From Haloactinopolyspora alba (lineage in GTDB: Bacteria > Actinomycetota > Actinomycetes > Jiangellales > Jiangellaceae), in the NCBI RefSeq assembly GCF_003014555.1, contig NZ_PYGE01000001.1:124001-188000 (forward strand): a DNA stretch of 64,000 bases. Direction: 5' to 3'. Below are positions 2,071 to 29,200 of the stretch, one piece after another (positions within the stretch are counted from its first letter, which is position 1; the number at the start of each line of letters is the position of its first letter). The translations under genes and the position numbers were made by a program. A model generated the notes under the pieces. That model was not told the DNA's origin, made no database searches, and worked only from the letters and a program-made list of their open reading frames with translations.

Positions 2071-2458
2071 GACCGACGACCTTCCCACGAAACGATGCTG
2101 GAACTGCGGCGACGTCTACGTGCCGGCCGCGGTAACGCAACGGTGGTGCTCGCGCGCGTGCCGCCGACAGGCGGCCAGAGCCCAGACTCGCGACGAGCGT
2201 GCGGCAGCCCGTCGGCGGTGCCCGATCTGCCGCCGCCTATTCACGGGCCGGCGCTCGGATGCCACGTACTGCTCACCGCGGTGTCGATGGCGCGCTCGCC
2301 GGGCCCGCGCACGCGTGAGCACCAACGTGGGTGCGCATGTGTTCCGGTGCCCGGTGTGCGCGGTCGAGTTCGACGCGCAGCGAGCGGACGCGCGGTACTG
2401 CGGTGAGCGGTGCCGCCAGCGCGCTCACCGCGCACGTTCGGTGGGTGAGCGCGCGTGA
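2066..2458 (+). CDS. Protein with three tandem treble-clef-like zinc knuckles
   Basis: About 130 residues are made of three related units: CWNC...WCSRACRRQ, CPIC...YCSPRCRWR and CPVC...YCGERCRQR. Each is a CxxC followed about 13-16 residues later by CxxxC and a basic helix. This resembles treble-clef fingers such as those of MYM/FCS or HNH-like proteins, so it is probably a nucleic-acid-binding accessory factor. Its stop overlaps the relaxase GTG by 4 bp, so the pair should be translationally coupled. The start is uncertain: GTG at 2039 and GTG at 2066 are both in frame, and both sit inside the shared regulatory motif. The later one is used here because it keeps all three fingers. Confidence 0.68.
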   Translation: MTTDDLPTKRCWNCGDVYVPAAVTQRWCSRACRRQAARAQTRDERAAARRRCPICRRLFTGRRSDATYCSPRCRWRARRARARVSTNVGAHVFRCPVCAVEFDAQRADARYCGERCRQRAHRARSVGERA

Positions 2459-5400
2459 TCTCGATCAAGGAGCTGCACGCCGGGGACGGGTACCGGTACC
2501 TGCTCAAGGGGGTGGTCGCCGACAGTGAGCAGATACCGGGCGCGTCTGCGGTCACGGCGTACTACACCGAGGCGGGTAACCCGCCGGGCCGGTGGCTCGG
2601 GTCCGGGCTCGCCGGCCTGAACGACGGCCACGGCCTCGAGGCGGGTGCGCAGGTGAGCGAGAAGCAGATGGAGCGGCTCTACCGCACCGGTTCTGACCCC
2701 GTCACCGGCGAACCACTCGGCCGCCGCTACCGAACGCCAAGACCACTCGAGGAACGGATCGCGGCCCGCGTCGAGGCCCTCCCGGAAGAAATGCCGGCCG
2801 GTGAGCGGGAGGCGATGGTGGAGCGGATCGAGGCCGAGGAGCGGGCCCGTAAGGTCTCGCGGCCGGTGTCGGGGTTCGATGTGACGTTCTCCCCGCCGAA
2901 GTCGGTCAGCGTCCTGTGGGCGTTGTCTGATCACGGTGTGCGGGAGCAGATCTACGAGGCCCACCGCGCCGCGCTCACGGACACGATCGCCACACTTGAG
3001 CGGGAAGTCGCGAAGACGCGCATCGGTACGGACGGTGTCGCCCAGGCCGACACTGCCGGGGTCCTCGCGGCGGCGTTCGACCATTGGGATTCCCGCGCCG
3101 GCGACCCGCAGCTGCACACGCACGTGGTGATCGCGAACCGGGTGCAGGGCCCGGACGGGAAGTGGCGCACGCTGGACTCGCGCGGGTCGATGTTCCCGGC
3201 GACCGTGGCCATGTCCGAGCTGTACGACACGCTGCTGGCCGATCACATCACCGCCCGCGTCGGCGCCGGTTGGCGGACACGCGGGACACCGGTGAAGACG
3301 AAGAACACTGCCTGGGAAATCGATGGCGTCTCCGACGAGTTGATCGCGGCGTTCTCCACCCGCGCCAACGACATCGAGCAGGAAACCGACCGGCTGATCA
3401 CCGACTACCGCCGCCGGCACGGCCGCTCCCCACGCGACACCGTCAAGCTGCGGCTACGCCAGATCGCGACCCTGGCCACCCGCCCGGTGAAAGAGATCCG
3501 CACGCTGAGCGACATGACCCAGGACTGGCGCGACCGCGCGGCCGTCGTCCTCGGAAACACCCCGGACGAGCCCGTGCAGCGGGCGATCCGGACCGCCACC
3601 AGCCCCGAGCAGGAGCCGGTGCTGTTGCGCGTGGACGATCTTGCCGCGGCCGGTGAGCTGGAGGAGCTGGCCCGCGCGGCGTACGTGGAGTTGGCGACGG
3701 AGCGGACCACGTGGAAGACGTGGAACGTGCGAGCCGCGGCCGCCCGCGCGTCGATGCGCCACCGCATGGTCACCACCGAGGAACGCGAACGCCTGATCGA
3801 CACCATCACACAGCGGGTAGTGGCGATGTCGGTCGACCTGACACCGGACGTGGCCGCGTCGACGCCGGCGCGGTTCACCCGCGCCGATGGCACGTCGATG
3901 TTCACCCGCACTCACGCCGGCCTGTTCACGTCCGCGGAGGCCCTCGCCGCCGAAGACCGTCTCCTCACCTCCGCCCGAACCCGAACTGGCGCGGTGGTCG
4001 GGTCGGAGACGGTCGAGCGCGTGGTGACCGCCGCATCGGTCGAGGGGCATTTCCTGACCGATGATCAGGCCGACGCGGTGCGTGACATCACCTCCAGCGC
4101 CCGCAGCGTCGACGTCCTCGTGGGGCCGGCCGGGGCGGGCAAGACCACCACCCTCGCCGCGCTACGCACCGCGTGGGAACTCGACCACGGCGAAGCCTCG
4201 GTCATCGGGCTGGCGCCGTCCGCGGCCGCCGCCGACGTGCTCGGCGAGTCGCTGGGCATCGAAGCGGACACCACCGCGAAGTGGCTGCACCACGCCGCCC
4301 AGGGCGACGAGGACCGGCGCGAGATCGACCACCTCACCACGGTGCTGCGCGGGCTCGAGGCCGGCGATCCCGCGTGGTTCGCCGAGCTGGCGCGCACCAG
4401 CGATCTCGGTGAACGCGCCGCGGCCTGGTCCGCATCGGTGGGAGCCGACCAGCCCGACACCTTGGCCGGTGCGGACGCACGAGACGCGGTCGCCGGCCGG
4501 CTTCAACGGCTGCAGGCGGATGCGCAGCGGTGGTCGTTCCGGCCCGGCCAGCTGGTGATCGTGGATGAGGCGTCGCTGGCGGGCACGCTCGCCGTCGACG
4601 ACCTCGCCACCCGCGCCCATGCCGCTGGGGCGAAGGTGCTCATGGTGGGTGACTGGGCCCAGCTCGCCTCCGTCGACGCCGGTGGCGCGTTCGGGATGCT
4701 GGTCCGCGACCGTGGTGAGGGCCTGGCGCCGGAGCTGACCGGGGTGCGCCGGTTCCGCGAGGCGTGGGAACGCCGCGCGAGTGTGCAGCTGCGTCTTGGT
4801 GACACCGCCGCCCTGGACGCCTACAGCACGCATGGGCGGCTGCTCGGCGGCGCGGCCGAGGACATGCTCGACGCCGCCTACACCGCCTGGAGCGCCGACG
4901 AGCAGGCCGGGCGGGTGTCACTGCTCATCGCCGGCGACACCGCGACCGTGACCGAGTTGAACCAGCGCGCCCGCGCCGACCGCCTCACCGCCGGGCTCGT
5001 CGACGAGCACAGTGTCACGCTGCACGACGGCACCGTCGCCGGTGCCGGGGACCGGGTGATCACAAGGAACAACCAACGCCGCCTCACCGCCGGCTCCGGG
5101 TGGGTGAAGAACGGCGACACCTGGCACGTCCAGCAGGTCCACCGCGACGGCGCGCTCACCGTCCGCCGCTCCGCCGGCGCGGGCACCATCACGCTGCCCG
5201 CGGCGTACGTGACCGAGCACGTCGAACTCGCCTACGCGACCACCGCGCACCGCGCCCAAGGCGCGACCGTGGACACCGCCCACGCGGTCGTGACCGGACC
5301 GAGCATGACCCGCGAAGTCCTCTACGTGGCGATGACCCGCGCCCGCCAAGCCAACCACGCCTACGTCGCCACCGACACCACCGAGGACGAGCGGCACCTG

Positions 5401-6237
5401 CACGACGACGCCGCGCCGACGGCCCGGTCGGTGCTGACCACCGTGCTGCTGCGCCAAGGCGCGGAACTGTCCGCCGGCGAGACCGCGCACGCCGAAGCCG
5501 AACGGGCCCGGTCGATCGGGCAGCTCGCGGCGGAGTACGACACGCTGCACCGCGCCGCGGCCGCCGACCGGCACACCACCCAGCTGGCCTCGTGCGGCAT
5601 CGACCCGGAGGCCGTCGAGAACTCCGAGCATCTCGTCGCGTTCTCCGGCGCAGTGCGCCGCGCCGACACCTACGGCCTCGACCCGGACGCCGCGCTGCCG
5701 AAGCTCGCGGCCGCGCAACCCATCGACCCGGAGCAGGACCCCGCGCGGGTGCTCGCCGCCCGCCTGGCGCGGTGGACCGACCACGCCATGCAATCCACAC
5801 CGGGCGGACTACAACACCAGCGACGGCTGGCTGCTGGGCTGGTGCCGGTCGCGCTCGGCATCACCGACCCGGACATGCAGCGCGCACTCACCGAACGCGA
5901 AGCACTGCTGGAAGACCGGGCCAGAGTGCTCGCCGAACGCGCCGTCAGCGAGCAGGCGCCGTGGCTGCGCCACCTCGGCCCCCAGCCCACCGACCACACC
6001 GCGGCCGCGCAATGGCAACGGTGTGTCCAGGTCGTCGCCGCCTACCGGGAACGCCACGACATCACCGACAGCACCACCCCGGCGGGCGATCCCGGGTCAA
6101 GCTGGACACAGCGCCACGACCACCGCCACGCCACCCACGCCGTTACCGCGGCGCGGCGCTTGGCCGGGTTCGGGGATGCTGGCCGCCCGGTCGAACAGCC
6201 GCACCAGCGCTCGCCAGGCGCCGACAGGACCCTCTGA
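2455..6237 (+). CDS. MobF (TrwC-like) conjugative relaxase-helicase
   Basis: The 1260-residue protein has an N-terminal TrwC relaxase domain and a C-terminal TraI/RecD-like helicase. The relaxase part shows AYYTEAGNPPGRW near residues 36-48 (catalytic tyrosine region), GFDVTFSPPKSVSVLW near 142 and the metal-binding LHTHVVIANR near 220. The helicase has Walker A GPAGAGKTT near 557, VIVDEAS in the next motif and YATTAHRAQG near 926-935. It should nick oriT, stay bound to the 5' end and unwind the strand for transfer through the T4SS encoded at 29.5-39.6 kb. The GTG start overlaps the zinc-finger gene by 4 bp. oriT was not pinpointed; the 1656-2036 intergenic stretch is the natural candidate. 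It is of usual length for the family and looks intact. Confidence 0.93.
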   Translation: MISIKELHAGDGYRYLLKGVVADSEQIPGASAVTAYYTEAGNPPGRWLGSGLAGLNDGHGLEAGAQVSEKQMERLYRTGSDPVTGEPLGRRYRTPRPLEERIAARVEALPEEMPAGEREAMVERIEAEERARKVSRPVSGFDVTFSPPKSVSVLWALSDHGVREQIYEAHRAALTDTIATLEREVAKTRIGTDGVAQADTAGVLAAAFDHWDSRAGDPQLHTHVVIANRVQGPDGKWRTLDSRGSMFPATVAMSELYDTLLADHITARVGAGWRTRGTPVKTKNTAWEIDGVSDELIAAFSTRANDIEQETDRLITDYRRRHGRSPRDTVKLRLRQIATLATRPVKEIRTLSDMTQDWRDRAAVVLGNTPDEPVQRAIRTATSPEQEPVLLRVDDLAAAGELEELARAAYVELATERTTWKTWNVRAAAARASMRHRMVTTEERERLIDTITQRVVAMSVDLTPDVAASTPARFTRADGTSMFTRTHAGLFTSAEALAAEDRLLTSARTRTGAVVGSETVERVVTAASVEGHFLTDDQADAVRDITSSARSVDVLVGPAGAGKTTTLAALRTAWELDHGEASVIGLAPSAAAADVLGESLGIEADTTAKWLHHAAQGDEDRREIDHLTTVLRGLEAGDPAWFAELARTSDLGERAAAWSASVGADQPDTLAGADARDAVAGRLQRLQADAQRWSFRPGQLVIVDEASLAGTLAVDDLATRAHAAGAKVLMVGDWAQLASVDAGGAFGMLVRDRGEGLAPELTGVRRFREAWERRASVQLRLGDTAALDAYSTHGRLLGGAAEDMLDAAYTAWSADEQAGRVSLLIAGDTATVTELNQRARADRLTAGLVDEHSVTLHDGTVAGAGDRVITRNNQRRLTAGSGWVKNGDTWHVQQVHRDGALTVRRSAGAGTITLPAAYVTEHVELAYATTAHRAQGATVDTAHAVVTGPSMTREVLYVAMTRARQANHAYVATDTTEDERHLHDDAAPTARSVLTTVLLRQGAELSAGETAHAEAERARSIGQLAAEYDTLHRAAAADRHTTQLASCGIDPEAVENSEHLVAFSGAVRRADTYGLDPDAALPKLAAAQPIDPEQDPARVLAARLARWTDHAMQSTPGGLQHQRRLAAGLVPVALGITDPDMQRALTEREALLEDRARVLAERAVSEQAPWLRHLGPQPTDHTAAAQWQRCVQVVAAYRERHDITDSTTPAGDPGSSWTQRHDHRHATHAVTAARRLAGFGDAGRPVEQPHQRSPGADRTL

Positions 6238-6357
6238 CAGCCCGGGCACACAGCAAGGCCCACAAACCATCCAGGGGCGCGTTGCCGAGAAGCACGTCAC
6301 CTGCCACGGCAGCGGTCTACAGGTCGGGGGCGAGGGAGGTTGGTCGTGACCGATGAA

Positions 6358-6582
6358 TCAGGGCCGTCGGATTGCCAGGTCGTCCTCGTGTGGCGCGTCG
6401 CTAAGATCGGGCTCCAGGTGCCACGACACATGCACGAGGAGCGGATACCCACGGACCAGCGACCACTGCGGCACCAACGCTTGAATCTTGGCCGGGCCGA
6501 ACTCCGCGAGCCCATGCTCACTGGCGTCGGGAAGCGTGTTCCTGAAGCCGAATGCCGTGGAGTTCCGGCACTCATAGAACAT
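6358..6582 (-). CDS. Hypothetical 74-residue protein, possibly truncated
   Basis: The translation has ordinary composition rather than the Arg/Pro-rich look of shadow frames, with a readable core FGPAKIQALVPQWSLV and VHVSWHLEPDLSD. No domain was recognised. It starts at an ATG without an obvious ribosome binding site and stands alone between the relaxase gene and the nuclease-like gene. Local base use is less GC-biased than the flanking conjugation genes, consistent with imported cargo. It may be the 3' part of a longer gene that has lost its beginning. Confidence 0.35.
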   Translation of the reverse strand: MFYECRNSTAFGFRNTLPDASEHGLAEFGPAKIQALVPQWSLVRGYPLLVHVSWHLEPDLSDAPHEDDLAIRRP

Positions 6583-6719
6583 TTGACGGACGGGCAGAAG
6601 CCCGCAGGCGGATCATGTGATGTCTGTCGTCGTTGGGATGATCGAGTGGGATGCGCATGCTTGCCACGGGCGGGAACGTAGAGCGCTCGGCCGTAGTTGA
6701 TTCGAAGAAGTGGGAGGCC

Positions 6720-7442
6720 ATGACCGTGCATAGCGTGACAGTCGTGGCTCCGATTTCGTCGCTCGGCGGACGCAGGTTCGAACCCCAGGCCGAGCTGGTC
6801 CTGCACGACCTCGCTCAACCAGCCGCGGCTTCGCTCCCTGGCACCGCTGGAGAGGTGCTGCTCATCCCCGAGATGCGCAGTCCCTTGGGCCTACCGGACT
6901 TCATCGCTCTGGCCGGGGGCCGGGACTGGCTTAAGGCGCGCGGTGCTGCGGGCGTCCAGCCGCTTCTCGCTGAGGCCGACTGCTCGGTGCTGGCGGTGCT
7001 GCACCCGGGACAGGCGCTTTCGTCGACGACGATCGCTCGGCGAGTCGGGTGGTCGCCAGCCGCTCTCGAGCCAGTGCTAGACCGTCTCGAGAATGCGGGC
7101 GCGGTCGAGAAGACCTCCGGCGGCGCGCACAGGGTGAACCAGGCGTTGGTGCCACGAGGATCAGCGTTCGCCCTGGAGGCGAAGGTGAAGGACTGGCAGA
7201 AGGCGGTTCTGCAGGGCCGCGCGTACCGCTCCTGGGCCGACAACTACGTCGTGCTCCTAGGGGATGTAGGCCCGGTGGCGGAGCGACGCGCCGCTGAGCG
7301 AGTCGCTCACGACGGGGCGGGCTTGTATTCATCGTCGGGATGGATCGTCAGGCCGCGCGCGAGGCGTCCCGCGCCGGCGAAGCGTCTCTGGGGCTTCGAG
7401 CACTTGTACGCCGCCACGGTGTCCTCAGCTCCAGCCCTCTGA
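6720..7442 (+). CDS. Winged-helix protein with PD-(D/E)XK-like motif
   Basis: This protein of about 240 residues has a middle winged-helix segment (STTIARRVGWSPAALEPVL, then RLENAGAVEKT). It is followed by ALEAKVKDWQKAVLQ and ADNYVVLL. Upstream is LGLPDFIALAGG. The order of an acidic PDF motif, an E-x-K strand and a D..YVV strand resembles PD-(D/E)XK nuclease-like folds found in many uncharacterised actinobacterial regulators; that assignment is inference. The ATG at 6720 follows GGGAGG very closely; an upstream ATG at 6651 is possible. The 3' end overlaps the convergent gene at 7425 by 18 bp. With the kinase and barrel-like gene it forms a compact cargo cassette. Confidence 0.6.
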   Translation: MTVHSVTVVAPISSLGGRRFEPQAELVLHDLAQPAAASLPGTAGEVLLIPEMRSPLGLPDFIALAGGRDWLKARGAAGVQPLLAEADCSVLAVLHPGQALSSTTIARRVGWSPAALEPVLDRLENAGAVEKTSGGAHRVNQALVPRGSAFALEAKVKDWQKAVLQGRAYRSWADNYVVLLGDVGPVAERRAAERVAHDGAGLYSSSGWIVRPRARRPAPAKRLWGFEHLYAATVSSAPAL

Positions 7443-8573
7443 CGCGGCGAAGAGCTCGAGTCCGTCGAGGAACGGCTTGATCCAGCGGTCGGGGCCGATC
7501 GGCGCGCCGGTGGTCCGTTTGACCTGCTGCCACTCGGGACGGGCATCCGTGTAGCGGCGTCGCAATGCGGCGATTCGATCGCGGCCGGTCAAGCCGTTCA
7601 GCTCGTCGACGATGGCGGTCAGGATCGACGCGTGGTGCTGGAACGCTTGCTCCGGCTTGGGGCCGATGGTGCCGGGGGTCAGGCGTGAGGCCAGCGCGGG
7701 CTCCTCCGAGGACAGCACGGAATACTCGCGATTGGAGAGCCCGCCCATGAGTCCGCCGAGCGTCGGGCGCTGGTACCAGCCGCCGCCGTTCTGGTCGCCT
7801 TCGCGCTCCTCGAAGTCCTGGTAGGCGCAGATGCGCTGGCGGATGTCCCACCCGGTCCCGATCGCTTCCGCTCCGGCGGCGATGGCCGGCAGCGCGGCGA
7901 TGTCGCCGAAGGCGATGCGCACGGGGCGGTCCTGGCTGAGCGCGAAAGTCGTGCGCATCAGGCCGTACACCTCTTCGGTAGTCGCGCCGGGCGGCATCGA
8001 GTTGTCCGACCGTGTCACGACGAGCAGCCAGCCAGCCGGCTCCAGCTGGTCCAGCGCACCGATGTGGGCATCTAACTCTGCGCCGGCACCCCAGAACTGC
8101 TGGTCCCCTGCAACGGTGATCCACGCAGCGGGCCCGACGTCCATGGCTTCCTGGCTGAATTCGAGCGCGCGCTGGCTCGCGGGCGTGTCGGGGTAGGACA
8201 CCAGCAGGGACGAGGCGAGGAGCGGGCTGGAGAGCTCTCGCTGACTCGCGTATACGCGGTCGATGTGGTCGCGCATGGCCGCTCGTGAAGACACGTCGCC
8301 ACGTGCGCCGCTCCAGAGGCTCCATGTGTCGTAGTGCCGGAAGTCACCGGCGCGGGGCATGCTCAGGGCGTAGGTCATGGGGTCGAACCAGAACTCGCCG
8401 CCCGCTGCTCGGATCTGTTCGGACGTGTCCTGCGCCGAGCGCTTGAAACCGTTGGCTAGGCGCGGGGAGGTGAAGGGCGACAGGTACGCGCCGGTCGCGT
8501 ACCTGCCTCGTATCGCGCTCGTGGCCCACTTGACTAGCGTGTTCCGGGCCGTGTCGCCAAGGAAGACTCCCAT
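7425..8573 (-). CDS. Unrecognised protein, possibly TIM-barrel-like, paired with kinase
   Basis: The 382-residue protein has no family I can name. Several short hydrophobic strands end in polar loops in a barrel-like rhythm: YLSPFTSPR, GGEFWFDPMTYAL, AAWITVAGDQQFWG, GWLLVVTRSDNS, VRIAFGDIAALPAIAAG and AIGTGWDIRQRI. The last two recall C-terminal strands of TIM barrels such as tRNA-guanine transglycosylase relatives, but no catalytic signature was confirmed. There is no signal peptide or membrane segment. The kinase stop overlaps this ATG (TGATG) after GAGGAG, so the two are translationally coupled and probably work together. The GTG three bases upstream is too close to the ribosome binding site. 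Confidence 0.62.
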   Translation of the reverse strand: MGVFLGDTARNTLVKWATSAIRGRYATGAYLSPFTSPRLANGFKRSAQDTSEQIRAAGGEFWFDPMTYALSMPRAGDFRHYDTWSLWSGARGDVSSRAAMRDHIDRVYASQRELSSPLLASSLLVSYPDTPASQRALEFSQEAMDVGPAAWITVAGDQQFWGAGAELDAHIGALDQLEPAGWLLVVTRSDNSMPPGATTEEVYGLMRTTFALSQDRPVRIAFGDIAALPAIAAGAEAIGTGWDIRQRICAYQDFEEREGDQNGGGWYQRPTLGGLMGGLSNREYSVLSSEEPALASRLTPGTIGPKPEQAFQHHASILTAIVDELNGLTGRDRIAALRRRYTDARPEWQQVKRTTGAPIGPDRWIKPFLDGLELFAASEGWS

Positions 8574-9400
8574 CACGCCTCCTCGAACGCGCGCTGCAGT
8601 GCGTCGCCGTTGCGGTACCGTCGTGCGGGCTGGGGGTGAAGCCCCCGCTCCACGACCGCGACCAGACCGTCGGGCACGTCCGGGCGTGCATCCCGCAGAG
8701 GTATGTGCTCCGCGGTCCGGAGGCGCCGGAGGTACTCGAAGTCATCACCCTTGTAGGGAACGGGCGGATGGCCGGTGGCCGCCAGGTAGACCAGCGCGCA
8801 GCAACCGAAGACGTCGGACGCGGCCGTGGGTGAGCCGGAGTACGCCTGGAGGTGCTCCGGCGTCATAAAGCCGCGGGTGCCCGGTTGGCCGCCGACGGTC
8901 AGCCCACTCCGGAGGGTGTGCTTTGCGAAACCGGGGTCCGTCACCACGAACTTCCCGGACGCGAGCCGCTGGACATTCCCAGGGCTGAGGTCGCGGTGGA
9001 TGACTTTCTTCTTGTGCAGCGCGCCGAGTCCGGCCGCCACGTCCCCTCCCAGCGCGAGCAGGTGCTCCCAAGGCCACCCCGATCCGCCATAGCGCAGGTC
9101 GGTGCCGTCGAGGAATTCCTCGAGCCAGAAGACCGCGACGGGCGGGTCGCCGAGCAGCTGGAGGTCCGAGCTGACAGCGACCACGTTGGGGTGGTCGATG
9201 CTCTTGAGCAGGTCGACCTCGCGCCGAGCGCGCTCGAGCGCCGCCGGGTCTGCGGCCAAACCGAGGTCGATAAGCTTGAGGACGCTCTCGTTGCCGTCGA
9301 GGTGTGTCACGACATGCACCTGCTTCTGCCCGCCCTGCACAAGGGCGCGCGCGGGCGCAACGTCCAGTTGGGAGCAGGCTTCGTGTAGCAGGTCGGTCAT
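8573..9400 (-). CDS. Ser/Thr protein kinase (Hanks type), soluble
   Basis: The 275-residue kinase domain has a likely ATP-lysine in VLKLIDLG, the catalytic loop HRDLSPGN near residue 135, TDPGFAK where DFG is usual (Pro replaces Phe), and GFMTPEHL as the APE-type motif. The C-terminus ends with the usual R-x-R-N-G-D element. Unlike PknB-type kinases there is no transmembrane segment or PASTA domain. I start at the ATG at 9400; the open frame continues upstream to 9724 but its extension is shadow-like. The downstream coupled gene is the obvious partner or substrate candidate. Mobile elements often carry such kinases in stress or anti-phage cassettes; no direct evidence shows this here. Confidence 0.8.
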   Translation of the reverse strand: MTDLLHEACSQLDVAPARALVQGGQKQVHVVTHLDGNESVLKLIDLGLAADPAALERARREVDLLKSIDHPNVVAVSSDLQLLGDPPVAVFWLEEFLDGTDLRYGGSGWPWEHLLALGGDVAAGLGALHKKKVIHRDLSPGNVQRLASGKFVVTDPGFAKHTLRSGLTVGGQPGTRGFMTPEHLQAYSGSPTAASDVFGCCALVYLAATGHPPVPYKGDDFEYLRRLRTAEHIPLRDARPDVPDGLVAVVERGLHPQPARRYRNGDALQRAFEEA

Positions 9401-9968
9401 CTCATGATCCTGGCATATCTGCACGGGCAGGACGGTGTTGGTCAATCGTGTCGCGGACCAAGCAACAGGGCGCGCCAGGATCTTGCCCGACAAGTGGCCG
9501 ATCATGAAGTGACAAGGCGGTCGCTGCGTCGGCCAGGGGCAGGGTCCGGTCGATCCTGACCGCGTGGCGGCCGCGGCCGCAGGCTCTGGTCTAGCCATCG
9601 TCGGGCCGTCCCACGTCGTGCTGCTCGAAGCCAGGATGGTCACGAAGGCGATGCACAGCACGGTCCTGGTCTGCTTCATGCTCATCGTCATCCGTTCGCG
9701 CCAGACGGCGAGCGCGCGGATCACCCTCGACCTCGTTCGCGATCGATCATGTCGAGCTCAAGTACGCACAACACATTTCGTGACCTGGCCCATTGGTCAG
9801 CACCATCAGCTGGGACGACGACCGCATCTGCTCCTCGAGCGACCGATTGCCCCATCCGACCGGACATCCCTCGGATGCCGCTGCGGAGTTCTGTGACTTC
9901 GAAACGCACGCAGGCCGAGTCTGCGAGGGGTTCGGCCTACGCTGGTCGTGGAGGAGTGGAGCACCGCC
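9401..9968. other. Intergenic stretch without a supported gene
   Basis: Several overlapping short frames occur on both strands but none has a family motif, a good ribosome binding site or codon bias. A minus-strand frame from 9724 begins with a signal-peptide-like segment (LCIAFVTILASSS) before turning into low-complexity sequence and joining the kinase frame. It may be the remains of a deleted gene. The kinase promoter should lie here. Confidence 0.5.
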
Positions 9969-10619
9969 ATGGCCGGACCCGAGCGGCGCGACAGGCTCGA
10001 CCTCGACGAGGGCGGCTCTTGGGCGGTCTCGACCGAGTCGGGCTCGCACTACCAGCTGATGCTCGGCGGTGACGAGAAGACGATCCTCCCTCTAGCCGTC
10101 GACACGGGGCACTCATACTCCGACGGCTTGCGCCCGCTGCGCCGTGACGGCGAGGTGTTCCCGCTGCTCGGACTTATCGATCCTCCGATCCAGGTCGCCA
10201 GCGATGCACCCAAGGCGGCGATCGCGGGGAGGCCCAGCATCCAGGCACCCTCGGGCGGACTGTACGCCGATCTCGGACACGGCTTGTCGTGCGGAGCGAA
10301 CTTCCTGGAAACCCTTGGGCTTCCCCACCTGGGCCGCCCGACAAGGTCCGCGCGGCCCAGGTTGGTGATGCCTCTGCACGTGCTCAAGGAACAAGGAGGA
10401 CGGGAAGACCTCGGCCAGGCCTCGGTACGCGCGTCAGTCAGATGGATAGCCCCGGCGCTGCGTGCTGCTGTGCCGCCTGCATTGACGCGCGGCGACCGGC
10501 CGGGCCGCCGCTGTGGTGCTGCGGGTGGCTGGCGCGCTGCCGCTGCGCGGAGGCCACGGTGCGGTGCGCGGCGTGGTGCTCGAGCCCGGCCTCGATGGCG
10601 GCCGCGACGAGCGGGGTGA
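9969..10619 (+). CDS. Hypothetical protein with probable run-on C-terminus
   Basis: The first about 75 residues look genuine: GSWAVSTESGSHYQLML, then LRRDGEVFPLLGLIDPP. This is a short beta-rich pattern seen in small actinobacterial proteins of unknown role. A ribosome binding site (GGAGGAG) precedes the ATG. From about residue 85 the composition turns Arg/Pro/Gly-rich and the frame runs 180 bp into the 3' end of the oppositely oriented primase gene. An ancestral stop was probably lost by an indel or junction near 10200-10250. Only the N-terminal part should be trusted. Confidence 0.4.
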   Translation: MAGPERRDRLDLDEGGSWAVSTESGSHYQLMLGGDEKTILPLAVDTGHSYSDGLRPLRRDGEVFPLLGLIDPPIQVASDAPKAAIAGRPSIQAPSGGLYADLGHGLSCGANFLETLGLPHLGRPTRSARPRLVMPLHVLKEQGGREDLGQASVRASVRWIAPALRAAVPPALTRGDRPGRRCGAAGGWRAAAARRPRCGARRGARARPRWRPRRAG

Positions 10620-11307
10620 GGTCGGTGGAGCCGTTGTCGAGGGCGCGGTTGGCGGCCCAGTAGAGCGCGTTGTTGCGGTTGCCGGGCTGGGTGTTGCGGA
10701 CGTGGTTGACCAGGTGGGTCATCCGCGGCTCGGCCGGCGCGTGCCCACCGCCCGCCGTGCCGACGTCCGGGGGCGGCGTGGGGGCGGGTGGTTGGAGCAG
10801 GTCGCGTGCGGTGGTCCAGTCGAACGGCTGGACCTGGCCGGGGTCGCGCACATCGATCGTGTCATAGCGCTGTGTGCCGTGGTCCGTCGTGACGAGGGAT
10901 GGGGGCAGGAGGACGTAGCCGCCCGCGCCGCGGTAGTCGATCTTGTGTCGGTGCAGCGCGTGGTTACCCTCAGCCGTGCCGGCGTAGTACAGGTGCAGCC
11001 CACCGGACGGGGTCCGCACAGCGTGCGACCACCCGTCGGTGAGCCCCGCGCGGGCGAGCTCACGTAGGGCGGGGTAGCCGGATTCGCCGTTCTTCATGTC
11101 GATGTCGAGGACATCCCACAGCGGCGCGCCGGTGGGCATGGCCAGGTTGGCGTCCGGCCACCGGCGCCACCAGTCCTGGATCTGTCCGGGGTCTGTGGTA
11201 GCGGCGGTGTAGCCGTGCTCGGTCAGCGGCTGCTTGCCGCCGGCCGCGCACGGGAACACCGCGATACCGGCCGCGGCGAACGACAGGGCCTCGTCGACCA
11301 TGACCAT
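10438..11307 (-). CDS. Bifunctional DNA primase/polymerase (Prim-Pol, AEP family)
   Basis: The 289-residue protein begins with the Prim-Pol signature (GIAVFPCAAGGKQPL). It carries the metal-binding LDIDMK near residue 67 and TPSGGLHLYY near 100, then the basic and aromatic strand GGYVLLPPS. The C-terminal tail is low-complexity with a PriCT-like helix region (NHVRNTQPGNRNNALYWA). It should synthesise primers for ICE replication or complementary-strand synthesis after transfer. It lies at the end of the SSB-DUF4913-primase run, six bases after the DUF4913 stop, and starts at an ATG preceded by GAGGTG. No helicase domain is fused to it; the giant methylase-helicase upstream may fill that role. 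Confidence 0.88.
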   Translation of the reverse strand: MVMVDEALSFAAAGIAVFPCAAGGKQPLTEHGYTAATTDPGQIQDWWRRWPDANLAMPTGAPLWDVLDIDMKNGESGYPALRELARAGLTDGWSHAVRTPSGGLHLYYAGTAEGNHALHRHKIDYRGAGGYVLLPPSLVTTDHGTQRYDTIDVRDPGQVQPFDWTTARDLLQPPAPTPPPDVGTAGGGHAPAEPRMTHLVNHVRNTQPGNRNNALYWAANRALDNGSTDLTPLVAAAIEAGLEHHAAHRTVASAQRQRASHPQHHSGGPAGRRASMQAAQQHAAPGLSI

Positions 11308-26980: not shown

Positions 26981-27012
26981 TTCAGTTGGAGCGACGCGCG
27001 TTCATGGAAAGT

Positions 27013-27048
27013 GGGCCCCGGGAGCGTGATTCGTGCTCCTCGGGGCCC
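27013..27048. terminator. Strong GC hairpin
   Basis: GGGCCCCGGGAGC pairs with GCTCCTCGGGGCCC with one bulged or mismatched base and an eight-base loop. It sits between the 3' end of the DUF3238 gene (minus) and the recombinase site and is likely the terminator for the former. The weak A/T run (AAAGT on the left) fits minus-strand reading. Confidence 0.6.
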
Positions 27049-27131
27049 AACCGCTCCACCACGCAGCAGCGTGCACGATGCGCCAGTCACGTCCGGCACG
27101 AGCTACACTCCTCGCGCATGACTGATACTGC

Positions 27132-28520
27132 CTATTGGGGATTGCACAAACGCGACCACAAGAGGATGTTCAAATCAATGTCAACCGTCGCATTTGGAGC
27201 AGGCGGAGCCAGAAACTCAAATCCACGATTATTGAATCGATAGAGACACTTGTTGGCTCGGTGATTCCCGTTCACGTAATAATCGACGCCAATTTCGTGC
27301 GATGGTGCCTGATCGTGTTCACCGACAATCGATACACGACCGCCAGGATGAGAAAAGAAGGCAGCACCGTAACTGATCGCAGGCGCCGCTCCGCCTGCAC
27401 ACAGCGGATCGCTAGCATCATGTTCCAAATACGTGTAGGCCATATCTGGTTCGTAGTTCTGGTAGATCGGTTCCCAGTTCAAATCAGATTCAGCCTCTTC
27501 AACCGTTTCGAAATAGTACCATTCATCGAGTGGTTCAGGAGCTTCTTCGGTGATCTTCTCGTCGATAGCGGTCGTACCCACCTTCCCGTGCCATGAGGCA
27601 GTTGAAGTTGTTGGATCGGTAGCCCCTTGAGGCGTGTAGAACCGACTCCGCCACCGCGTGGACGTGCGTGATGATTCCTCACCCGGAATATCCCAGCCGA
27701 AATTGCCTGATTCGGTGAATTCTCTTGGGATTCCATCCGCTCCGATAGCAAAGAATTCATTGATTGTCTGGGCGGCCGTGCCATCCCCGCGGAATAGGTG
27801 ATCAGACGGGAGGATGAGTTCGGGACAGAGCACTTGTGACAAGGAACTTTCGACATGATGGGGTGGAATAAATGTGTTCCACCATACATTGTGTCCTTCG
27901 ACCCTCTCCTCCTGATTGATCTCCTTACCGTCAGACAGCTCCATGGCCTTGACTTCAGAGAAGGTCCGTCCGCGATAATCTCGCCGCTCTGGTACATCAA
28001 TCATGAAGAAGTATGGTTTGAACGTGCCGACAGAACCATTGGTGTGGAGCGCGCGTATCTTGTACAGATGACCCCTTCTTGGGTCAGCTCTTCGATCCAC
28101 AAATTGGGTCGAGCTAACAGTCTCGATCGCGCGACCATCGCGAACAATCTGCCAGGTAGTTGCCGAAGATACTTCGTCCGGAACACCCCAGTCCAATGCG
28201 ATTTGTTCGGCGTCAGCAGTCCACTCGATCAGTTGGTGATTCGCGCTTTGCGCCGTCCGCTCGACTCGCAGTTCTTGGTCCTTAACAACATCCGACGAAT
28301 CAAGCGAGAGTTTCAACAGCAATTCTCGAGTAGACCCCGCGCTCGGGGCACTTTTCGGCGCCATCCCAGAGTTCTCGAGCGAAAGAGTGACAATCGACTC
28401 GGAACCAACGTCAGATTCGGCAAGTGCTCTCGTTTCGTAAACGGACGCTACCGCGAGTCCAGTGGCGATAGATAATGCACAATACGCCAGATTTCGGGAG
28501 CACTGTAAGGCTTTAGACAT
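27132..28520 (-). CDS. Secreted DUF3238-like protein, AT-richer cargo
   Basis: The 462-residue protein starts with a signal peptide (ALQCSRNLAYCALSIATGLAVAS, then ALAES). A fibronectin-like middle follows (VDRRADPRRGHLYKIRAL). The C-terminal half has FNTFIPP-like (WWNTFIPPHHV) and GEHDQAPSHEIGVDYY, the hallmark of DUF3238. This family is extracellular and uncharacterised. The base composition is clearly lower in GC than the neighbours and codons include many with A or T in third position, pointing to recent transfer. GGGG lies five bases before the ATG at 28520. It could be an adhesin- or effector-like secreted product. Confidence 0.72.
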   Translation of the reverse strand: MSKALQCSRNLAYCALSIATGLAVASVYETRALAESDVGSESIVTLSLENSGMAPKSAPSAGSTRELLLKLSLDSSDVVKDQELRVERTAQSANHQLIEWTADAEQIALDWGVPDEVSSATTWQIVRDGRAIETVSSTQFVDRRADPRRGHLYKIRALHTNGSVGTFKPYFFMIDVPERRDYRGRTFSEVKAMELSDGKEINQEERVEGHNVWWNTFIPPHHVESSLSQVLCPELILPSDHLFRGDGTAAQTINEFFAIGADGIPREFTESGNFGWDIPGEESSRTSTRWRSRFYTPQGATDPTTSTASWHGKVGTTAIDEKITEEAPEPLDEWYYFETVEEAESDLNWEPIYQNYEPDMAYTYLEHDASDPLCAGGAAPAISYGAAFFSHPGGRVSIVGEHDQAPSHEIGVDYYVNGNHRANKCLYRFNNRGFEFLAPPAPNATVDIDLNILLWSRLCNPQ

Positions 28521-28722
28521 CGACACCCCAAAGAATTTTGCCCGTCACACGTCCAATTCTGGCAATATCGTCGACGATTTCCCCATCTGACCACTTATGA
28601 TGCATCCGGTCAATGTGGTGTAAATCACAAGCTTTTGCTGCCCGGCCATGCCGGCCCTGTACAGCGCAGTCTCGATGCCGGAGAACATCGACCTGCGAGG
28701 TGGGTCTTGACTTGAACTCCAT
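28513..28722 (-). CDS. Hypothetical His/Cys-rich small ORF
   Basis: The 69-residue frame overlaps the start of the secreted-protein gene by 8 bp. It contains CDLHHIDRMHHKWSDGE, which could bind a metal or be an HNH-like fragment. Only 19 bp separate it from the divergent membrane-protein gene, leaving little room for two promoters, so it may be the remains of a larger gene. Composition matches the AT-richer island. Confidence 0.35.
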   Translation of the reverse strand: MEFKSRPTSQVDVLRHRDCAVQGRHGRAAKACDLHHIDRMHHKWSDGEIVDDIARIGRVTGKILWGVDV

Positions 28723-28741
28723 GATATGGTATTAAAAGAAT

Positions 28742-29200
28742 ATGTGGCGTCGAAAGAGCCAAATGCCCGATCCTCGAGTTCGCTATCGCAAGCCTTTGGA
28801 GCTTCCCGATTTCGCTTGGGGCGCATTTGGTGCGTATTTGACTGCGTGTGCCGCGATGGGATTCTTAGGAACATTCGTAATCGATGACCAGTGGTCCGCA
28901 GGGCTCTTTTTGGCTGGCGTGACCGCTGTTGCTGCCGTTCCGATTCTCACGCTTATTGTTATACCGACGACATTCTTTATCGAGAGAAAATTCAATCGGC
29001 ACGGACTGGCCAGTATACGTCGCCTGATAGGAATCTACAGTTTTCTCGGTATAGTAGTAGGGGCGCCTTGGGCGATGGCCGAATGGTCGATACTGATTGT
29101 GAGCATTTTAGCATCTCTTGTGGGGCGGGGTGTTGCCGAGCTAAGCAGTGTTCGTGAGCGGTCTGATCGGGATATATACTTAGATCCTCGCCGCAACTGA
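28742..29200 (+). CDS. Four-helix membrane protein, AT-richer cargo
   Basis: The 152-residue protein has hydrophobic segments near residues 27-47 (FGAYLTACAAMGFLGTFVID), 50-75 (LFLAGVTAVAAVPILTLIV), 95-117 (LIGIYSFLGIVVGAPWAMA) and 118-132 (SILIVSILASLVG). It ends in a short basic tail. No family was recognised. No good ribosome binding site precedes the ATG at 28742; ATG 28763 after GAAAGAG is an alternative. Base composition is like the secreted-protein gene opposite, so both probably arrived together. A transporter, immunity or anchoring role is possible but unsupported. Confidence 0.55.
   Translation: MWRRKSQMPDPRVRYRKPLELPDFAWGAFGAYLTACAAMGFLGTFVIDDQWSAGLFLAGVTAVAAVPILTLIVIPTTFFIERKFNRHGLASIRRLIGIYSFLGIVVGAPWAMAEWSILIVSILASLVGRGVAELSSVRERSDRDIYLDPRRN

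Follow-up and report, generated by a model that had tools for sequence, protein, structure and literature searches.

Given that genes for a protein kinase, a protein of no recognised family and a nuclease-like protein lie side by side between the relaxase and primase genes of the window (the whole 64,000-nucleotide stretch of DNA analysed here), we asked whether the three form one unit and what that unit might do. An earlier note on this DNA had proposed that they constitute a mobile cargo cassette and could amount to a defence or exclusion system not described before.

Position and mobility of the cassette

The layout read in the earlier note is accurate in its particulars. The coordinates and motif check out for a Ser/Thr kinase with TDPG, whose stop overlaps the start of the 382-residue ORF in a TGATG at 8571-8575, and the 18 bp overlap between the latter and the convergent winged-helix gene is real. 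An alternative GTG start at 8576 would lengthen the middle protein to 383 aa, and a possible alternative start for the nuclease ORF lies upstream at 6651. A MobF relaxase gene (2455-6237) flanks the cassette on one side and a Prim-Pol gene (10438-11307; PF09250, E = 1.5e-32) on the other, in agreement with the position that had been claimed. The features are as follows:

8573-9400, minus strand: kinase ORF, ATG at 9400, stop at 8573, 275 aa, PF00069 match
7425-8573, minus strand: ORF of the 382-residue protein (the "barrel"), directly downstream of the kinase, unnamed family
6720-7442, plus strand: ORF of the putative winged-helix PD-(D/E)XK-type nuclease, convergent to the other two, motif and HTH match
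6557-9464, no strand: mobile cassette unit, ~90% DNA identity to L004 and L005, flanks unrelated
6237-10438, no strand: relaxase-to-Prim-Pol interval, 4.2 kb in the window

Because dN/dS compared across three hosts is 0.07-0.13 in each gene, indicating purifying selection, and because the set is kept in 11 divergent lineages, the three reading frames are not chance ORFs.

Among the GTDB species genomes searched there were only two close copies, in Actinokineospora (contig L004) and Brachybacterium (contig L005), which belong to different orders, and the ~90% DNA identity with both is limited to the 2.9 kb of window 6557-9464. Related elements in genomes G018 and G009, with relaxases 72% identical, contain an empty site: they run from relaxase to Prim-Pol with a gap of only ~0.2-0.4 kb, compared with 4.2 kb in the window. 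The cassette is therefore cargo of the conjugative element, and the mobility suggested earlier is borne out both by these empty sites and by the ~90% identical unit in unrelated flanks. More broadly, cassette carriers include plasmids, one ICE, integrase islands and also chromosomal islands; the copies in genomes G556 and G526 lie near integrase genes (in G526 by reading), and relatives of the barrel were found neither in phage records nor in IMG/VR scans with seven queries.

Closer inspection of the edges suggests an origin for the insertion. The left cassette edge in both close copies coincides with the ychF 3' end (YchF-GTPase_C, E = 1.5e-38 and 1.6e-36), and the last codons of ychF come from the cassette (GAGTTCCGGCACTCATAG). 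At the corresponding edge in the window, position 6557, only the remnant GTGGAGTTCCGGCACTCATAG is kept; because this equals the ychF end in L004 and L005, the window cassette probably derives from a ychF-end insertion of the same kind. The L004 copy occupies a 6-kb island (L004:3958-10016) between two ychF 3' ends that form the direct repeat GTCGAGTTCCG, with a second, native-looking ychF end (GTCGAGTTCCGCTTCAACGTCTGA) closing the island. Its cargo comprises the cassette, AbiV and AbiD, and no integrase was seen within it. The replacement of the last ychF codons by an island, as in L004, is a little-reported type of insertion site. Beyond the cassette edge, a 70-bp stretch at window 9933-10002 is 79% identical to L005:6392-6461, where it surrounds the start of a small ORF, and may have been left behind from the source island. 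We also noted a 74-aa ORF (window 6358-6582, minus strand) that starts inside the cassette edge and resembles a gene truncated by insertion.

Predicted properties of the three proteins

The kinase consists of the catalytic domain only (PF00069, E = 2.3e-19, above cut-off). Among nine aligned kinases, K42, E61, the HRD at 135-137, N142 and D155 of the DPG are invariant, which is the residue set expected of a Hanks-type kinase. We rejected the TDPG motif as the mark of a dead kinase, since the metal-binding Asp and the Gly are retained and the middle residue varies among relatives (P, L, V or F, with DLG, DVG or DFG motifs); the natural reading of these residues is that the kinase would be active.

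In the product of 6720-7442, a winged helix at about residues 84-140 is situated between a GxPD (D60) and an ExK (E153, K155), and the remaining motif residues are E25, E51, W159, Q165 and Y169. The Asp of Gx[PAV]D, the ExK, one Trp and one Gln are identical in 11 divergent lineages, so the PD-(D/E)XK-like pattern remarked upon previously (E..GxPD..ExK..Q) proves invariant and agrees, at motif level, with this nuclease superfamily. No Pfam nuclease model matched the protein (NucS_C was weak at E = 0.18). The winged helix gives a weak MarR/HTH-like match (E = 1e-4) and is weakly Rrf2-like as well, and it is missing from the Polaromonas protein, which has a compact core (GLVDVLARDGAQALVAFEAKLSDWRRGFLQAY). 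An AlphaFold model built from three near-identical sequences reached a mean pLDDT of 41.8, with the winged-helix part alone above 70. From the conserved motif we infer the fold and activity of a PD-(D/E)XK nuclease whose core hairpin carries an inserted domain.

The 382-residue protein has no match in Pfam, NCBIfam, PHROGs, PADLOC or PDB sequences, as its earlier description as a protein of no recognised family implied. Members from the other lineages tested had no Pfam, PADLOC or PDB relative, and PDB sequence searches with barrel profiles were empty. These proteins form one family, with leave-one-out profiles scoring 51-168 bits and a comparison of combined group profiles giving E = 8e-10 over 310 columns. 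Compared directly by hhalign, the window group showed no significant similarity to the barrels of Kineococcus/Arthrobacter or of Kocuria (E = 0.085 and 0.04; negative controls 0.15 and 0.7), and the family link passes via the Polaromonas/archaeal group (E = 1.6e-5, 1.1e-5 and 5e-6). It is the most diverged member of the trio, at 11-38% identity between the window and the non-close copies, and its recurrent residues are an SP, FD[PA], a later SP, GA....G.G, one His and one Trp. Our suspicion that the protein is a beta/alpha barrel, from which we take its working name, comes from a suggestive alternation of strands and helices; an AlphaFold model from three near-identical sequences had a mean pLDDT of 35.5. 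Two barrel enzymes were considered and rejected, namely TGT (hhalign E = 0.14 against one TGT; no PF01702 match by hmmscan) and a dihydroorotate dehydrogenase (DHOD)-like protein (hhalign E = 0.67, a single-sequence comparison). One barrel sequence used alone as query gave weak genome matches (L002, L003, L008-L013); these proved to be either antisense frames or SelB GTPases and were discarded as chance.

Conservation and neighbourhoods of the trio

The complete trio, with its genes adjacent, is present in all 13 full loci, drawn from 11 divergent lineages that comprise Actinomycetota, Polaromonas and one haloarchaeon, and the proposal that the three genes make up one cassette is thereby upheld. 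The kinase directly precedes the barrel in every one of the 11 lineages, either with a gap of -136 to +10 bp or as a fusion, the latter being a single 675-aa protein in Kocuria rosea. The position of the nuclease gene is more variable, convergent in 7/11 lineages and co-directional upstream in the other 4/11; because of the convergent orientation, it would be transcribed separately in most lineages. A Dietzia plasmid carries the three genes with order, orientation and overlaps identical to those of the window at 30-44% identity, and G556 has the same arrangement. Searches of plasmids for weaker matches added the Kocuria rosea copy and those on Kineococcus pKRAD01 and Arthrobacter FB24 plasmid 3. 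Outside Actinomycetota, the trio occurs on Polaromonas pPNAP03 and in the haloarchaeon Natribaculum breve, with nuclease, kinase and barrel co-directional. Beside the Polaromonas trio, L038:8604-9677 reads as a second PD-(D/E)XK protein (DLAVV...FEVKTS) and has no Pfam match.

A barrel profile and a nuclease profile were searched independently against one set of 236 Actinomycetota genomes. Either search returned six genomes, and five were common to both (p = 6e-9 by chance; 7.6e-6 once the two genomes that had contributed to the profiles are left out). Three of the trio genomes were new (G416, G526 and G412), and in these the kinase lies between or beside the barrel and nuclease genes. Homologues of the 382-residue protein always occurring without the kinase would have counted against the proposal of the earlier note; this is contradicted by a kinase next door at 13/13 full loci, one of them with the fusion. 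A solo homologue exists in genome G099 (L055:8339-9739; hhalign E = 6e-8), which adjoins an IS3-like transposase and has no kinase or nuclease nearby.

The neighbours of the trio are of mixed kinds. In the L004 island AbiD (PADLOC E = 3.5e-58) and AbiV (PF18728, E = 3.2e-30) accompany it. In G412 the trio is embedded in an operon of overlapping genes (L054:2995-19001), with a methylase gene on one side and a RapA-like Snf2 helicase on the other. This operon also contains PglZ (E = 4.4e-37) and a large P-loop protein (the DNA methylase and P-loop protein were assigned by reading). Around this copy pglZ and a putative methylase occur together, the pairing expected of BREX; DUF1156 was looked for in the operon and not found. 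The whole resembles a type 3 BREX locus, in which the helicase BrxHII has been likened to RapA, and nuclease effectors are known to be embedded in BREX loci (both from a recent survey, PMC12839542). Elsewhere, pieces of an Eco57I-type (type II) methyltransferase, split by IS1634, lie near the Dietzia copy, a NERD-domain gene near the Kineococcus copy, and a large N6-type methylase (by reading) upstream of the Natribaculum copy. On the Natribaculum plasmid a metallophosphoesterase-like gene, possibly a phosphatase partner, directly follows kinase and barrel (L039:7201-7890). Several plasmid copies sit beside metal-resistance or transfer genes, and defence neighbours are not universal.

A candidate kinase-controlled nuclease system and its alternatives

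Because a NERD-type nuclease is already known to be paired with an S/T/Y kinase in PglW (PMC12839542) and DndF (PMC10853773), the logic of nuclease plus kinase is not unique to the cassette. In PglW (type 2 BREX/Pgl) and in DndF of the NERD-kinase kind, the PD-(D/E)XK-type nuclease and the kinase are domains of one large protein, found with PglX/PglZ or DndGH, whereas the cassette has separate genes, a putative nuclease with an internal winged helix and an obligatory third member from an unnamed family. The PADLOC profile for PglW matched the cassette through the kinase alone. The nearest PADLOC kinase profiles were PD-T4-6 and MAD6, a likeness of kinase domains in general. PD-T4-6, a single-gene anti-phage Ser/Thr kinase, is similar over the full length of the cassette kinase (E = 1.2e-34) but possesses its own C-terminal region, which the kinase-only 275-aa protein lacks, and its PADLOC models do not include the two partner genes. 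The cassette kinase resembles the MAD6 kinase of MADS (PADLOC E = 1.2e-29) but scores 83.5 bits with the NCBIfam MAD6 model, far below the equivalog cut-off of 460, and the window cassette lacks the MADS methylase and every other MADS gene. The KKP system, a tripartite kinase/kinase/phosphatase antiphage toxin-antitoxin (PMC11341870), is also a small mobile three-gene Ser/Thr kinase module, but it has two kinases and a phosphatase, whereas the window cassette has a single kinase, accompanied by the putative nuclease and the unnamed protein, and lacks a phosphatase gene. The G412 trio is embedded in its operon in the manner of the auxiliary PD-(D/E)XK effectors of BREX loci (PMC12839542), although most trio copies stand alone. 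The passages of that survey consulted do not describe a nuclease-kinase-barrel trio, and a trio with the unnamed member is absent from PADLOC (2023) and from the open-licence literature searched.

The claim of a new system stands insofar as no described system found matches it, while its defence or exclusion role is suggested by neighbours and mobility. Our best reading is a mobile kinase-controlled nuclease defence system that is not described in the sources searched. We assign a probability of roughly 0.5 to the cassette being a horizontally mobile three-gene immune module of this type, with its neighbours and mobility as the grounds for a defence function. The wider claim is tentative and falls short of even odds: that bacteria and archaea share a widespread immune system which has so far gone unnamed. 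In it, a nuclease with a winged helix in its catalytic core would be controlled by a kinase, itself coupled to a protein (sensor or enzyme) whose family is absent from current databases, and the system would act alone on mobile elements or as an add-on in BREX-like operons.

Given the translational coupling of the kinase and barrel genes, their invariable adjacency and the fusion in Kocuria, their products may constitute one signalling unit, in which the fast-evolving 382-residue protein would most likely serve the kinase as sensor or regulator. Sensing of foreign DNA, from a phage or a competing element, would activate the kinase, which would then phosphorylate its targets; the simplest target would be the nuclease, which is a guess, and the alternative a host protein. 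Phosphorylation would license the PD-(D/E)XK nuclease, the built-in winged helix would bring it to DNA, and cleavage would follow, either of the invader DNA or of host DNA as abortive infection. We infer the direction of signalling, the trigger, the targets and the defence role alike.

The main rival scheme makes the kinase itself the toxic effector, braked by the barrel or the nuclease-like protein until infection lifts the brake and host growth stops. KKP provides a precedent for such a tripartite antiphage module (PMC11341870), the pairing of kinase with barrel is the constant part of the cassette and takes the form of a fusion in Kocuria, and the metallophosphoesterase gene after the barrel in Natribaculum would suit the scheme. 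The other trio loci, however, read without a phosphatase, and the PD-(D/E)XK catalytic residues, needless for a mere antitoxin, are invariant in 11 lineages, so we consider a kinase toxin unlikely. The main alternative target is the competing element rather than the phage: the cassette would guard its own ICE or plasmid by cutting the DNA of incoming plasmids or ICEs. Most copies do reside on plasmids, the ICE or integrase islands, and none in phage records, but the cassette is also enclosed in a PglZ operon and, elsewhere, has AbiD and AbiV, both active against phages, as neighbours, and exclusion as the dedicated purpose seems to us rather improbable.

Two further schemes reassign the partner proteins, and we regard both as very improbable. 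The winged-helix protein could be a nuclease-derived regulator in a module for element transfer or maintenance, with the kinase signalling host state, as its weak MarR/Rrf2 likeness and the copies on conjugative elements would allow. Its catalytic motif is nevertheless intact everywhere, the Polaromonas protein keeps the nuclease core while dispensing with the winged helix, related ICEs manage without the cassette, and chromosomal islands carry it too. Least probable of all is restriction by modification, with the barrel as a DNA- or nucleotide-modifying enzyme, the nuclease cutting unmodified DNA and the kinase in a regulatory role; the enzyme-like conserved residues of the barrel (SP, FDP, GA..G.G) and the methylases adjoining several copies fit this idea, while the single-sequence comparisons with TGT and DHOD-like barrels gave it no likeness to draw on.

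If the kinase-controlled nuclease reading is correct, the cassette would represent a compact kinase-based immune system across two domains of life, in a class with few solved mechanisms, and would supply a role for a protein family that has no annotation. It would also offer a simple three-protein setting for how phosphorylation switches on a DNA nuclease, for which nature provides variants to test: the fused protein of Kocuria, the operon of the haloarchaeon and the Polaromonas nuclease that lacks a winged helix. Elsewhere in the window, G+C drops to 0.52-0.54 at 27001-29000 against ~0.70 around it, and this segment (ORF 27132-28526, minus strand) is likely a recent acquisition.
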